NCBI RefSeq assembly: GCF_014268445.2
Contig: NZ_CP077089.1
Coordinates: forward strand, 5,665,001 to 5,729,000
DNA length: 64,000 nucleotides
Origin: Pseudomonas tensinigenes
GTDB lineage: Bacteria > Pseudomonadota > Gammaproteobacteria > Pseudomonadales > Pseudomonadaceae
Direction: 5' to 3'
The translations under genes and the position numbers were made by a program. Position 1 is the first letter of the stretch, and the number at the start of each line of letters is the position of its first letter. Below the pieces are notes generated by a model that made no database searches, had not been told where the DNA came from, and was given only the letters and a program-made list of their open reading frames with translations. Below are positions 5,645 to 24,668 of this stretch, piece after piece.

Positions 5645-6136
5645 TCAAGCCGAAGGATGCAACGCCACGATCATGTCGACCTCAATCGCCGCGTTCTTCG
5701 GCAACTGATACACGCCAACCGTAGTGCGCGTGTGCCGGCCGGCATCACCGAGCACATGACTGAACACGTCCGACGCACCGTTGGCGACTTCGCTCAGATC
5801 AACGAAGTCCGGCGTCGACTTCACATACACCGTCACCCGCAACAACGCCTTGATCTTGTCCAGCGAACCCACCGCATCGACGATCAGCGCCAGGCAACGC
5901 ATCGCACTGATGCTGGCGGCGGCTTGCGCATCCTTGAGGGTCAGCTCCAGTCCGACGCGACCCGGGTACTGAATCTTGCCATTAGTGCGCGGCACCATGC
6001 CGCTGATGTACAACTCATCGTGATGTCGGATCAGCGGCGCGTAATTGCCGCCGGCGGTGTTCTCGCCATAGATGTCGTAGTTCAGCTCTTGGGCCAGGGC
6101 AATAAAACGCTCGTCGCAGGTCATCCTCTCAGTCAT
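5645..6136 (-). CDS. RidA/YjgF (Rid) family protein
   Basis: A 163-residue cytoplasmic protein of the Rid superfamily, in the subgroup with a longer N-terminus and an AGRH(T/A)R motif (GDAGRHTRTTVGVYQLPKNA). Rid proteins form trimers; RidA itself hydrolyses reactive enamine/imine intermediates made by PLP enzymes. The Arg in HTRTTVG and the Glu in AAIEVDMIV match the usual active-site positions. The start at 6136 has AAGG 9 bp upstream; an alternative Met four codons later has a poorly placed site. Pairing with the nearby PLP aminotransferase (2.6 kb away) is only suggestive. Confidence 0.85.
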   Translation of the reverse strand: MTERMTCDERFIALAQELNYDIYGENTAGGNYAPLIRHHDELYISGMVPRTNGKIQYPGRVGLELTLKDAQAAASISAMRCLALIVDAVGSLDKIKALLRVTVYVKSTPDFVDLSEVANGASDVFSHVLGDAGRHTRTTVGVYQLPKNAAIEVDMIVALHPSA

Positions 6137-16670: not shown

Positions 16671-17573
16671 ATGTCCTCCACCAAAGCCCGCGCAGACTCA
16701 CTTTCGCTTCTGCTGTTTACCTTGCGCAGCGGCAAGCTGATGGCGATCAACCTGCTGAAAGTCAGTGAAATCATCCCCTGCCCGCCGCTGACCAAACTAC
16801 CGGAGTCGCACCCGCACGTTAAAGGCATCGCCACCCTGCGCGGCGCCTCGCTGTCGGTCATCGACCTTAGCCGCGCGATCGGTGAGCGTCCGCTCGAAGA
16901 TCCGAACGGCGGCTGCCTGATCGTCACCGACGTCAGCCGCTCCAAGCAGGGCCTGCACGTACAAGCGGTGAGCAAAATCGTCCACTGCCTGACCACCGAC
17001 ATCAAACCACCGCCATTCGGCTCCGGCGGTTCACGCGCTTACATCACCGGCGTGACGTCGGTGGACGGCACGCTGGTGCAGGTACTGGATATCGAAAAAG
17101 TTATCCACAGCATCGCCCCGGCGCAGATCGAAATGGCCCCGACCGATCTGAGCATGGAAGACGCTGATGTGCTCGGCAATGCGCGGATTCTGGTGGTCGA
17201 CGATAGCCAGGTGGCGCTGCAACAATCGGTGCACACCCTGCGCAACCTCGGCCTGCAATGCCATACCGCACGCAGCGCCAAGGAAGCCATCGACTGCCTG
17301 CTCGACCTGCAAGGCACGGCGCAGCAGATCAACCTGATCGTCTCCGACATCGAAATGTCCGAGATGGACGGTTACGCCTTCACCCGCACCCTGCGCGAGA
17401 CCCCGGACTTCGCCCATTTGTACGTGCTGCTGCACACCTCGCTCGACAGCGCGATGAACAGCGAAAAAGCGCGCCTGGCCGGGGCGAACGGCGTGTTGAC
17501 CAAGTTCTCCTCGCCGGAACTGACCCACTGCCTGATCGAAGCGGCCAAACACGTCGCCGCCCAAGGGCACTGA
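16671..17573 (+). CDS. cheV: Chemotaxis coupling protein CheV
   Basis: A 300-residue cytoplasmic protein with a CheW-like coupling domain (about 1-160; LLFTLRSGKLMAINLLKVSE, TRLPESHPHVKGIATLRG-like segment) fused to a receiver domain (about 172-298; ILVVDDSQ, phospho-acceptor in LIVSDIEMSEMDGY). CheV links chemoreceptors to CheA and acts as an adaptable coupler or phosphate sink. AAGGTT precedes the ATG. Four bases separate it from the following acetyltransferase, so the two are probably co-transcribed. No other che gene is present in the window. Confidence 0.94.
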   Translation: MSSTKARADSLSLLLFTLRSGKLMAINLLKVSEIIPCPPLTKLPESHPHVKGIATLRGASLSVIDLSRAIGERPLEDPNGGCLIVTDVSRSKQGLHVQAVSKIVHCLTTDIKPPPFGSGGSRAYITGVTSVDGTLVQVLDIEKVIHSIAPAQIEMAPTDLSMEDADVLGNARILVVDDSQVALQQSVHTLRNLGLQCHTARSAKEAIDCLLDLQGTAQQINLIVSDIEMSEMDGYAFTRTLRETPDFAHLYVLLHTSLDSAMNSEKARLAGANGVLTKFSSPELTHCLIEAAKHVAAQGH

Positions 17574-18617: not shown

Positions 18618-19367
18618 ATGAATACGACGTTTTCCTGCGTAGGTTGCGGCAAATGCTGCACCGATCACCATGTTCCCCTGACCCTGGCCGAAGCCCGCAT
18701 GTGGGCGGCGGATGGCGGTCAGGTGATTGTGCTGGTGGAGGCTTTTCTCGGTAATGGCCTGGGTCTGCCGGCGCAGCAGCGAGAACATGCCGAACGTCGC
18801 TCAGCGGTCGTTCGCAGCGGCGCAACCGACGCCCATGTGGCAATCACCTTCGCGGCTTACAACGTCGGCCCCTGTCGGAATCTTGACGAAGACAAGTTGT
18901 GCCGGATCTACGAGCGACGGCCGTTGGTCTGCCGCATTTATCCGGCGGAAATCAATCCGCATATCCCGCTCAACCCTGCCGCCAAGGATTGCCCGCCGGA
19001 GTCCTGGCAACAGGGGCCGGTATTGATCGCTGGCGGCGAGTTGGTTGATCAGGAACTGGTCGAATTGATTCAACGTTCGCGCCAGGCCGATCGCGATGAC
19101 ATCGGGATCAAGGACGCGATCTGCGCGATGCTGGGGATTCGCACCACGGCGTTGAAGGGTGACGGGTTTACTGCGTACTTGCCGAATATGGATGCCTTTG
19201 CGGCAGTGATTGATCAGGTGACAGCGCAACCGTTGACGACTGCGCCGAGTGAGTGGGTGTTTCATCTGTCGGGCGATGATGTTGCCGGGCAGGTGTTGGC
19301 AGCCGGGGCTCAGGTGGTGACGGAGCCGGCGCAGACGTATGCGTTTATCTCGTTGCGCGCGGCTTGA
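18618..19367 (+). CDS. YkgJ-type cysteine-cluster protein
   Basis: A 249-residue cytoplasmic protein with an N-terminal CxxCxxCC motif (CVGCGKCC, residues 7-14) and later Cys residues in VGPCRNL, KLCRIYERRPLVCRIYP and KDCPPE. This CxxCxxCC...CxxY..RP..C pattern defines the YkgJ/UPF0153 cysteine-cluster (Fe-S or zinc binding) family. Function is not established. The rest (about 120-249) is less conserved. An upstream TTG at 18600 could add six residues; the ATG is chosen because it starts the family's usual short leader. No linked partner gene. Confidence 0.83.
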   Translation: MNTTFSCVGCGKCCTDHHVPLTLAEARMWAADGGQVIVLVEAFLGNGLGLPAQQREHAERRSAVVRSGATDAHVAITFAAYNVGPCRNLDEDKLCRIYERRPLVCRIYPAEINPHIPLNPAAKDCPPESWQQGPVLIAGGELVDQELVELIQRSRQADRDDIGIKDAICAMLGIRTTALKGDGFTAYLPNMDAFAAVIDQVTAQPLTTAPSEWVFHLSGDDVAGQVLAAGAQVVTEPAQTYAFISLRAA

Positions 19368-19630: not shown

Positions 19631-20776
19631 TCAGCTGGCAGCCACTGCCAGACATTCAAGCTCCACTTTAGCTCCCGGCACCACCAGTTGCTTGCCCGCG
19701 AACGTCGTGCGAGCAGGTAACCGGTCGGCAGGGAAATAGCGGCGATAAACCTCATTCATCCCGGCGAAATCCTTGACGTCGGTGAGAATCACGGTGCACT
19801 TGGCCACGTGCGCGAGAGATGAACCACTTCGGTCCAGCGCGCTACGCAGATTCTCCATGACCTGAACCATCTGCGGACGAATCCCGCCCGCCGCCAGTTG
19901 GCCATCGACATCCAGCCCGAGCACACCGGACAAATAGATCGTCTCACCAATCTGTACGGAATCGGAAAACGGCAAATCCTGCGCCTTGGCTCGATAGCGG
20001 GGGAAGTCACTGATAGCAGACGACAGATAGCGCTCAGTGATCGCCTGATACTGGCCGCTCTGTTTTAAACGCTCGAGGGCCGTATTGAGTTCATCACGCA
20101 GTTTGCTGTCGGTTTTGCGCAAAGCCATGGCCACGCCCGTGCCCAGCATCGGATCCTTGAGCGCCGGCCCTGCAAAACCGAACGCCTGACCCTGCGGCCG
20201 GCTCAAGAATGCGTGCGTGATTTCGATGGAATCCTGCAAGGTGGCATCGATTTCACCGCTCTGCAGACTCGCAATCAGTTGATCGTTGAATTGAAAACTA
20301 CGAATCGTCACACCCGACTCAGCCCAGCGCGCCTTGGCGAACGCCTCGCGACTGGTGCCGGCCAACACACCAATACGTGTGCCTTGGAGTGATTTGGCAT
20401 CAGGTTGCAGATGCGTCCCCTTGCGCGCGACCAACTGGCTGCTCAACGGGTAGAGGTTTTCAGTGAAATCGATGCGTTCCCGCCGCGCCGGGGTGGCCGT
20501 CATCGGCATGATCACGTCGAAACGATTGGCCTCAAGCGCCACGATATTGGTCGCGTAATCCTGATCGACCCACACGCAACGTTTTTGCAGTTCGGCGCAC
20601 AAGGCATTGCCCAACTCGATGTTGAGTCCGACCAGTTCACCTTTATCGTTGCGACTTTCAAAGGGAGGTACGAGAGGTTCGACGCCAAACCGCAGCGTCG
20701 GCTCGACCGTCGACGACACACAACCGGTGGTCAGGGCTAACAGCGACAAAGCGGACAGGATTTTTGCCAGAGACAT
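19631..20776 (-). CDS. Lipoprotein fusing a solute-binding domain (SBP_bac_3) to a RidA domain
   Basis: A 381-residue continuous frame. Residues 1-19 form a lipoprotein signal (SLLALTTGC, Cys19). Residues about 28-258 are a family 3 amino-acid-binding domain (LRFGVEPLVPPFESRNDKGE, IVALEANRFDVIMPMTATPA, IGVLAGTSREAFA, LQSGEIDATLQDS). Residues about 264-381 are a RidA/YjgF domain (PFSDSVQIGETIYLSGVLGL through the C-terminus). It keeps the Arg of the PAR motif (Arg356) and the Glu of VELE (Glu372), equivalent to RidA Arg105 and Glu120; the RidA Cys107 position is Thr358. The ATG at 20776 has AAGG about 8 bp upstream. No ABC permease or ATPase gene is adjacent. The lipobox predicts an envelope location, unusual for a Rid domain. 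Domains certain, joint function unknown. Confidence 0.86.
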   Translation of the reverse strand: MSLAKILSALSLLALTTGCVSSTVEPTLRFGVEPLVPPFESRNDKGELVGLNIELGNALCAELQKRCVWVDQDYATNIVALEANRFDVIMPMTATPARRERIDFTENLYPLSSQLVARKGTHLQPDAKSLQGTRIGVLAGTSREAFAKARWAESGVTIRSFQFNDQLIASLQSGEIDATLQDSIEITHAFLSRPQGQAFGFAGPALKDPMLGTGVAMALRKTDSKLRDELNTALERLKQSGQYQAITERYLSSAISDFPRYRAKAQDLPFSDSVQIGETIYLSGVLGLDVDGQLAAGGIRPQMVQVMENLRSALDRSGSSLAHVAKCTVILTDVKDFAGMNEVYRRYFPADRLPARTTFAGKQLVVPGAKVELECLAVAAS

Positions 20777-20906: not shown

Positions 20907-21146
20907 TCAGCGCTTGCCCATCGAACGACGGGTACCCGGCGGCGCCATGCCCGGGGTCTTGGTGTGGCCATTCTTGGCGCCGTTCTTGTACCACGGCTGG
21001 TTCGAGCCTTTGGCAGAGGCCAGCTCGCCCGGCTTGAACGGAAATTTGAAGGCCGGGATATCGGCTTTGGTATCGCTGGTGTCGGCCAGTTCAGCCGGGA
21101 CATCGCTCACGGCGTCGTCAACCGGCGGCAGGGTCGGGGAAGTCAT
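20907..21146 (-). CDS. Small proline-rich basic-tailed hypothetical protein
   Basis: A 79-residue protein starting at the ATG at 21146 (CGGAG 7 bp upstream). The N-terminal half is acidic and probably disordered (DDAVSDVPAELADTSDTKAD). The C-terminal half is basic and Gly/Lys-rich with a motif-like GSNQPWYKNGAKNGHTKTPG ending TRRSMGKR. No signal peptide or membrane segment. Not recognised; the composition suggests a nucleic-acid or partner-binding tail, but that is a guess. Confidence 0.6.
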   Translation of the reverse strand: MTSPTLPPVDDAVSDVPAELADTSDTKADIPAFKFPFKPGELASAKGSNQPWYKNGAKNGHTKTPGMAPPGTRRSMGKR

Positions 21147-23507: not shown

Positions 23508-24668
23508 ATGCGAATCCAAAAAAACAAAGCCCTGCTCGCCACCCTATTGATCGTCCTCGCAGGCGCAGGTCTGTGGTACGCCCTGAAACCCGCCCCGACC
23601 AAACTCGCCACCCCCACCGCCATCCCCGTGCGAGTGATCGCCGTCAGCGAAAAAGACGTCCCCCGCTACACCAGCGGCATCGGCTCCGTACTCTCATTAC
23701 ACAGCGTCGTCGTGCGCCCACAAATAGACGGCATCCTCACCAAAATCCTCGTCAAAGAAGGCCAGCTCGTCAAAGCAGGCGACCTGCTGGCCACCATCGA
23801 CGACCGCTCCATCCGCGCCAGCCTCGATCAGGCCCGCGCCCAACTGGGCGAAAGCCAGGCGCAACTGCAAGTCGCCCTGGTCAACCTCAAACGCTACAAA
23901 CTGCTCACCGTCGACGACGGCATCTCCAAACAAACCTACGACCAGCAACAAGCCCTGGTCAACCAACTGAAGGCCACCGCTCAAGGCAACCAGGCCTCGA
24001 TTGATGCGGCGCAGGTACAGCTTTCCTACACGCAGATCCGCTCGCCGGTCACCGGCCGCGTCGGTATTCGCACAGTCGACGAAGGCAACTTCCTGCGCAT
24101 GACTGACACCGCAGGCCTGTTCACCGTCACCCAGATCGACCCGATCGCCGTCGAATTCTCCCTGCCGCAGCAAATGCTGCCGACCCTGCAAGGCCTGATC
24201 AACGATCCGCAACGCGCACAGGTCAAGGCCTACATCGGCGCAGACACCGACGGCGAAACCGGCAACCTGCTCGGCGAAGGTCACCTGACCCTGATCGATA
24301 ACCAGATCAACGCCAACACCGGCACCATCCGCGCCAAGGCCGAATTCGACAACGCCAGCCAGAAGCTCTGGCCCGGCCTGCTGGTCACGGTAAAAATTCA
24401 GACAGCCCTCGACAAAGATGCGCTGGTCGTCCCGCCCACCGTCGTACAACGAGGCCTCGATCAACACTTCGTTTACCGGGTCAACAGCGACAAGGTCGAA
24501 GCCGTGCAAGTGCAGATGGTTTATCAAGGCAGCGGCCAGGACATCATCAAAGGCGTGAAGGCCGGCGACGTGCTGGTCACCGATGGCCAGTCGCGGCTTA
24601 AACCGGGTTCAACGGTGCAAGTCATGAGCGAGCCGGCGCAGGTAGTGCAAGCGGAGCCGAAACCATGA
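23508..24668 (+). CDS. RND efflux periplasmic adaptor (membrane fusion protein), MdtA-like
   Basis: A 386-residue protein. A membrane anchor or uncleaved signal occupies residues 8-26 (ALLATLLIVLAGAGLWYAL). The lipoyl halves (VVVRPQIDGILTKILVKEGQ and LSYTQIRSPVTGRVGIRTVD) flank an alpha-hairpin rich in Gln, Ala and Leu (about 100-165), followed by beta-barrel and membrane-proximal domains. It bridges the inner-membrane pump encoded next to an outer-membrane channel. Its end overlaps the pump start by 4 bp (ATGA). No outer-membrane factor gene is in the unit, so a shared channel is presumed. Confidence 0.92.
   Translation: MRIQKNKALLATLLIVLAGAGLWYALKPAPTKLATPTAIPVRVIAVSEKDVPRYTSGIGSVLSLHSVVVRPQIDGILTKILVKEGQLVKAGDLLATIDDRSIRASLDQARAQLGESQAQLQVALVNLKRYKLLTVDDGISKQTYDQQQALVNQLKATAQGNQASIDAAQVQLSYTQIRSPVTGRVGIRTVDEGNFLRMTDTAGLFTVTQIDPIAVEFSLPQQMLPTLQGLINDPQRAQVKAYIGADTDGETGNLLGEGHLTLIDNQINANTGTIRAKAEFDNASQKLWPGLLVTVKIQTALDKDALVVPPTVVQRGLDQHFVYRVNSDKVEAVQVQMVYQGSGQDIIKGVKAGDVLVTDGQSRLKPGSTVQVMSEPAQVVQAEPKP

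Follow-up and report, generated by a model that had tools for sequence, protein, structure and literature searches.

A gene that joins a solute-binding protein (SBP) domain to a Rid domain lies at positions 19631 to 20776 of a 64,000-nucleotide stretch of the Pseudomonas tensinigenes genome (contig NZ_CP077089.1, genome positions 5665001 to 5729000; this whole stretch is called the window). An earlier interpretation made from the DNA letters alone (the sequence-only reading) had placed one continuous 381-codon frame here and described its product as an envelope lipoprotein. The coordinates were right; the strand, which had been left unstated, is minus. The frame starts with an ATG at 20776, its stop codon ends at 19631, and it encodes 381 amino acids without an internal stop. 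The first frame of the plus strand over the same interval contains internal stops, and a gene caller based on codon usage picked the minus-strand frame at 19631 to 20776. An SBP_bac_3 domain followed by a RidA domain had been proposed, and Pfam matched both far above the cut-offs: SBP_bac_3 (PF00497) at residues 28 to 252 (20021 to 20695; E value, 1.3e-29) and Ribonuc_L-PSP (PF01042) at residues 269 to 378 (19643 to 19972; E value, 2e-26; 92.8 bits against a cut-off of 27.3). Residues 1 to 18 (20723 to 20776) have the sequence pattern of an export signal that ends in a lipobox, LTTG-C, of which Cys19 (20720 to 20722) is the candidate lipidated residue. The two domains are connected by a linker (residues 253 to 268; 19973 to 20020), with low model confidence at residues 254 to 258 and 265 to 269. 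All of these features, and the residues described below, are on the minus strand.

A homologue search in which 8,000 candidates were scored yielded 253 relatives. Both domains are present in 118 of the 120 that were listed (six near-identical rows without a source are among them); the remaining two are from contigs that measure 1,520 and 1,007 bases. An architecture search across Pseudomonas, which the sequence-only reading had proposed, found SBP and Rid as a full-length fusion in 31 of 298 sampled genomes, P. tensinigenes included, and many other genomes of this sample matched over the SBP part alone. Forty-two loci came from named genomes (41 from Pseudomonas and 1 from Nitratireductor soli), and 41 of them match through to the end of the Rid domain, one of these (L103) with an internal in-frame deletion. 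Further fusions occur in Nitratireductor thuwali and Herbaspirillum rhizosphaerae; a fusion record named Rhodococcus (P0054) is, we guess, probably mislabeled. In a phylum-wide sample of 398 genomes, full-length fusions were found in 3, all Pseudomonas. We estimated omega, the ratio of nonsynonymous to synonymous substitution rates, for 210 pairs among 37 coding sequences with synonymous divergence (dS) of 0.05 to 1.5. Median omega was 0.140 for the SBP domain, 0.143 for the Rid domain, and 0.348 for the signal, and values above 0.5 were seen in 3 pairs for Rid and in none for SBP. Because whole-length homologues occur in many species and omega is about 0.14 in both domains, we conclude from these comparisons that both domains are under purifying selection and that the SBP-Rid architecture is itself selected. 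The same counts and omega values, with whole-length fusions in many genomes, rule out two separate genes whose frames had been joined by a sequencing error. Long frames in two genomes (G612 and G614) were considered as fusions and rejected, since each proved to be an ordinary SBP preceded by an open frame.

In an alignment with E. coli RidA, TdcF, RutC, YoaB, and YjgH, all 11 fusions included conserve the residues of RidA Ser30, Asn88, Arg105, and Glu120. We also assembled 135 full-length fusions, after a duplicate (P0002) and four entries shorter than 365 amino acids had been dropped, and reduced them to 88 with less than 90% identity to one another; this set underlies all counts out of 88. 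The corresponding residues in it are Ser283 (86 fusions), Asn341 (84), Arg356 (19709 to 19711; all 88), and Glu372 (19661 to 19663; 87). Arg356 and Glu372, which had been singled out from the sequence alone as the retained residues, align with RidA Arg105 and Glu120. According to passages of PMC4433059, imine hydrolysis depends on Arg105, and this residue separates RidA and Rid1 to Rid3 from Rid4 to Rid7. The whole-model structure search covered residues 24 to 254 alone; the Rid part was hence modeled and searched separately, and it has the RidA fold, at 25% sequence identity to E. coli RidA. As judged from the alignments, the Rid half keeps the active-site residues for imine hydrolysis intact. 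It also has a pair of cysteines, Cys327 (19796 to 19798) and Cys375 (19652 to 19654), each present in 88 of 88 fusions; E. coli RidA has Thr and Ala, respectively, at these positions. A second, divergent Rid-domain gene, called as 159 amino acids, lies elsewhere in the window (5645 to 6124, minus strand; PF01042, 46.6 bits).

Signals and lipoboxes in the fusions were called with a simple pattern test. A hydrophobic N-terminal signal was found in 88 of 88, in agreement with the earlier claim of an exported SBP-Rid protein that retains its Rid active site. The lipoprotein label fared less well: a lipobox is present in 59 of the fusions, including that of P. tensinigenes, and 29 have none, so that the label is weakly supported. 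Cys19 of the P. tensinigenes protein stands in LTTGC, with Thr at position -3, where the usual lipobox residue is Leu. These patterns indicate that export is the rule across the fusions and that lipid anchoring is variable.

To place the Rid half among its relatives, we searched with the Rid part of another fusion (P0125) and found 401 stand-alone relatives, of which the 120 nearest were listed. By a crude hydrophobicity test, 104 of these 120 have a signal-like N terminus, and 36 combine a hydrophobic core with a lipobox. Cysteines occupy the Cys327 and Cys375 places in 112 of the 120, a count that is biased upwards since the search relied on shared words, among them words from the Cys regions. 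Among the 30 best Rid loci of the genome sample, 3 are fusions and the other 27 were aligned. Eighteen of the 27 have the Cys pair, in 15 cases together with a signal by eye; the pair is absent from nine, which instead have Thr/Ala (six loci), Ser/Val, Ser/Ala, or Thr/Val and show no clear signal. The Rid domains of 11 fusions form one clade in the smaller Rid tree (support, 0.994). When 13 fusions and their relatives were placed in one tree, a stand-alone protein (P0141) fell within the fusions (0.958) and another (P0142) beside them (0.967); P0142 passes the signal test, and P0141 is signal-like by eye. Deeper nodes of this tree are weak, and it did not support a single origin of all Cys-pair Rids. 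Because the nearest stand-alone relatives are mostly signal-like, export of the Rid part probably predates its joining to the SBP, and the view of it as a cytoplasmic enzyme newly sent to the periplasm is probably wrong.

The surroundings of other Rid genes showed no conserved partner in 18 regions inspected by eye. The Cys-pair Rids of L157 and L158 adjoin sarcosine oxidase genes, and at L187 and L188 such genes are directly followed by a signal-less Rid with the Cys pair. At another locus (L203:6313-8264), a PvdN-like class-V aminotransferase dependent on pyridoxal phosphate (PLP), with a twin-arginine-like signal by eye, stands 41 bp before an exported-looking RidA-type protein; it scores 88.1 bits, under the family cut-off of 650.

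The SBP half is nearest in both sequence and fold to the lysine-arginine-ornithine-binding protein (LAO) and HisJ. It has the LAO fold and scores 192.8 bits with TIGR01096, under the cut-off of 256.35. We took the ligand positions of LAO from the titles of LAO mutant structure entries and mapped them through ArgT. Asp11 of LAO is replaced by Glu33 in 88 of 88 fusions, and Glu is also found in a P. tensinigenes SBP that we take to be AotJ-like. Tyr14 is replaced by Val36 (87 of 88) and Ser70 by Pro91 (86 of 88), and Ser69 is deleted in all 88. Arg77, presumably the carboxylate-binding position, is kept as Arg98 (20483 to 20485) in 87. At Asp182 (20231 to 20233), the place of Asp161, 75 fusions have Asp and 13 have Asn. 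Two further replacements are seen in every fusion: Gln122 becomes Arg143 (20348 to 20350) and Ala164 becomes Glu185 (20222 to 20224), where ArgT and HisJ have Gln and Ala. The fusion thus differs from LAO/ArgT and HisJ in its pocket, in having no linked importer in the window, and in its appended Rid domain. By its charges, the rewired pocket could still accommodate a molecule that is cationic and resembles an amino acid.

A clade of stand-alone SBPs lies close to the fusion (L064 to L068 and tandem copies in L090 to L106). We compared 14 stand-alone relatives, nine of which are tandem copies preceding a fusion or the site of one; this set left out L069, which has ordinary residues at several places, and a partial tandem copy of L092. 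All 14 share Arg143, Asn164, and Glu185 with the fusions. At the Asp11 place they have Ala (12 proteins) or Val (2), and at the Asp161 place all 14 have Gly; they are perhaps not ordinary amino-acid binders. The fusions, the Rid-less SBP of Pseudomonas psychrophila described below (L109), and the 14 relatives form one group in the SBP tree. The support at its base is 0.274 and thus does not choose between loss of Rid and never having had it in the stand-alone forms.

We put at roughly one half the probability that the gene encodes an envelope deaminase for imines and enamines, a two-domain protein that is exported, often with a lipid anchor, and has the SBP half as its capture arm. The Rid halves would trimerize, with the active sites at the subunit interfaces. 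The SBP halves, on flexible linkers, would bind a cationic amino-acid-like substrate in the periplasm, such as an imino acid derived from arginine or lysine, or the source of one, and binding would raise the substrate concentration at the Rid sites, where imine or enamine would be hydrolyzed to a keto acid and ammonium. Imines could arise from envelope flavin adenine dinucleotide-dependent dehydrogenases, periplasmic PLP enzymes, or chemical oxidation, and the outcome would be that reactive intermediates do no damage in the periplasm. We infer the substrate, the trimer, and the activity. In passages of the papers concerned, Rid2 and Rid3 proteins deaminate iminoarginine (PMC5619798), and PvdN and PtaA are periplasmic PLP enzymes of Pseudomonas (PMC6206403). 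PvdN is encoded in the P. tensinigenes genome (782.4 bits). That genome also holds an SBP, two permeases, an ATPase, RidA, IclR, and a D-serine-dehydratase-like PLP enzyme as separate neighbors (L204:4775-10482), a cluster that by analogy may be the unfused counterpart of the fusion.

Several observations weigh against such a deaminase. Full-length fusions occur in a minority of the sampled Pseudomonas genomes. At L103 (9977-10882), most of the Rid domain has been lost by the in-frame deletion and the SBP part is intact, and at L109 an SBP 65% identical to the fusion SBP has no Rid; Rid is therefore dispensable somewhere. Asn in place of Asp182 in 13 fusions is hardly expected of an ordinary amino-acid binder. 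With the Rid subfamily model TIGR00004, the fusion scores 84.0 bits, under the cut-off of 106.25. Three Rids with the Cys pair (L157, L158, and L172) have no signal by eye, so that the pair is no proof of a periplasmic disulfide. P0141, nested in the fusions, falls under the cut of the signal test (1.65 versus 1.9) and, from its place in the tree, might be a broken-off fusion. Finally, we recognized no imine-producing enzyme beside the fusion in the window, and no operon partner is conserved across 43 loci, which represent several different neighborhoods.

An alternative is that both halves are catalytic, the SBP half making an enamine or imine, in the manner of cyclohexadienyl dehydratase, and the Rid half hydrolyzing it. 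Glu185 aligns with Glu173 of the cyclohexadienyl dehydratase PaCDT. In passages of PMC10520331 and PMC7683729, Glu173 is the general acid of this enzyme, which is held to derive from such a binding protein; PMC10520331 further describes exported fusions of chorismate mutase with the dehydratase, which, like the SBP-Rid protein, join an exported SBP-derived protein to a second small-molecule enzyme. The fusion is like the dehydratase in having Glu at the catalytic position, but just two of nine PaCDT active-site residues are in place (Asn152 and Glu173) and the other seven differ. Moreover, Glu185 is also present in the 14 stand-alone relatives, which have no Rid and lack Asp182. We consider a bifunctional enzyme of this kind unlikely.

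We examined the neighborhood of the fusion in the window and at the 43 loci, where genes were called from codon usage. The gene immediately upstream in the window is a 79-amino-acid open reading frame (ORF) at 20907 to 21146 on the minus strand, 130 bp from the fusion, with no Pfam or NCBIfam match. Relatives of this ORF, about 80 amino acids long, occur in 31 of the 43 loci and immediately precede the fusion in 23; at 8 loci, that place is taken by a tandem copy of the SBP. A promoter scan upstream of the fusion gave nothing above shuffled sequences. Farther upstream, an efflux operon of the resistance-nodulation-division type begins at 23508. On the downstream side are a GNAT gene and a gene encoding CheW and a response regulator (16671 to 17573, about 2 kb from the fusion). 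The other neighbor of the fusion on that side is an ORF with a CxxCxxCC domain (18618 to 19367), relatives of which occur in 34 of the 43 loci. Other neighbors are, like the tandem SBP, limited to some lineages: a cluster that we take to be for acyl-CoA, with its own ATP-binding cassette (ABC) importer (L096, L099, and L100), and a presumed pst-like locus (L102, L104, and L111), both named from the look of their sequences. A gene of DJ-1/PfpI, another metabolite-repair family, with a signal-like start by eye, lies directly beside a fusion (L089:11135-11977) and beside the Rid-less SBP (L109:9061-9903), and it too is confined to some lineages, as are the chemoreceptor genes discussed next.

The sequence-only reading had proposed a sensor or scavenger in which the Rid part modifies, binds, or trimerizes around the cargo. 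As a sensor, the protein would use its SBP half to present a ligand to a kinase or chemoreceptor and its Rid half to convert or buffer the signal. A gene for a methyl-accepting chemotaxis protein (MCP) is indeed next to the fusion at L087 and L092 and one gene away at L089, and the CheW-response regulator gene is near the fusion in the window. However, these MCP genes are found at 3 of 43 loci, the remaining 40 yielded no call from the MCP gene cluster, and the two MCPs that were scanned carry PAS domains and are therefore unlikely to sense a ligand in the periplasm. A sensor is thus quite improbable, and scavenging or modification is the better half of the proposal.

The Rid half could instead be a trimerization scaffold or a stress-activated (chlorine-activated) holdase, with the SBP half doing the work. 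Passages of PMC4433059 describe Rid proteins as typically trimers, and passages of PMC4284807 describe the conversion of E. coli RidA into a chaperone on N-chlorination; the envelope would be the first to meet HOCl. A scaffold would have no need to keep Arg356 in all 88 fusions and Glu372 in 87, and we give this explanation as little credence as the sensor. Orphan SBPs are common, and kinship with LAO and HisJ would suit an SBP of an unlinked ABC importer with Rid as a passenger, but the changed pocket (deletion of Ser69, Gln122 to Arg143, and Tyr14 to Val36), the retained Rid active site, and the lack of ABC matches in the window make this highly doubtful. As the sequence-only reading had noted, no transporter genes are linked: none of the 81 permease matches (PF00528) in the genome falls inside the window, and neither does any of the 115 matches to the ATPase family (PF00005; 199 candidates, of which 150 were scored).

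The SBP-Rid protein differs from RidA and Rid1 to Rid3 (PF01042) in its export signal and its fusion to an SBP, in its Cys pair at 327 and 375, and in having Thr at the position of Cys107. In full-text searches of open-licence papers, we found neither SBP-Rid fusions nor exported Rid proteins described among the papers listed, PMC9537276 and PMC8854710 included; the RidA protein OngD has 127 amino acids in PMC9537276. One fusion record (P0056) carries the source name "lysine-arginine-ornithine-binding protein/reactive intermediate/imine deaminase," and annotation pipelines therefore already meet this architecture. The fusion also resembles two exported-looking amidohydrolase (PF01979)-Rid proteins (L200:7911-9554 and L201:7830-9461), which are likewise signal-like chains with a C-terminal Rid that has the same Cys pair and Arg/Glu; the partner domain differs. 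The gene at L201 adjoins one for an M19 dipeptidase.

More tentatively, and with less confidence than we place in the deaminase itself, we raise the possibility that the Gram-negative envelope runs a Rid-based control of metabolite damage. Exported, Cys-paired Rids would have become fused, independently in different lineages, to envelope proteins acting on amino acids or peptides, such as the SBP and the amidohydrolase, and the SBP half, no longer a carrier, would hand over the enamine or imine or, through Glu185, make it, and the Rid half would then destroy it. Work on Rid enzymes has dealt mainly with their role in the cytoplasm, where they protect PLP enzymes. Our analysis suggests that some bacteria may also detoxify reactive amino-acid intermediates outside the cytoplasm. 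Rid chemistry in the periplasm, if it does take place, requires that reactive imines be formed in that compartment. Such a function would bring periplasmic PLP enzymes, amino-acid dehydrogenases, and damage to the envelope into one picture, and it would show a binding protein turned into the substrate-delivery arm of an enzyme.
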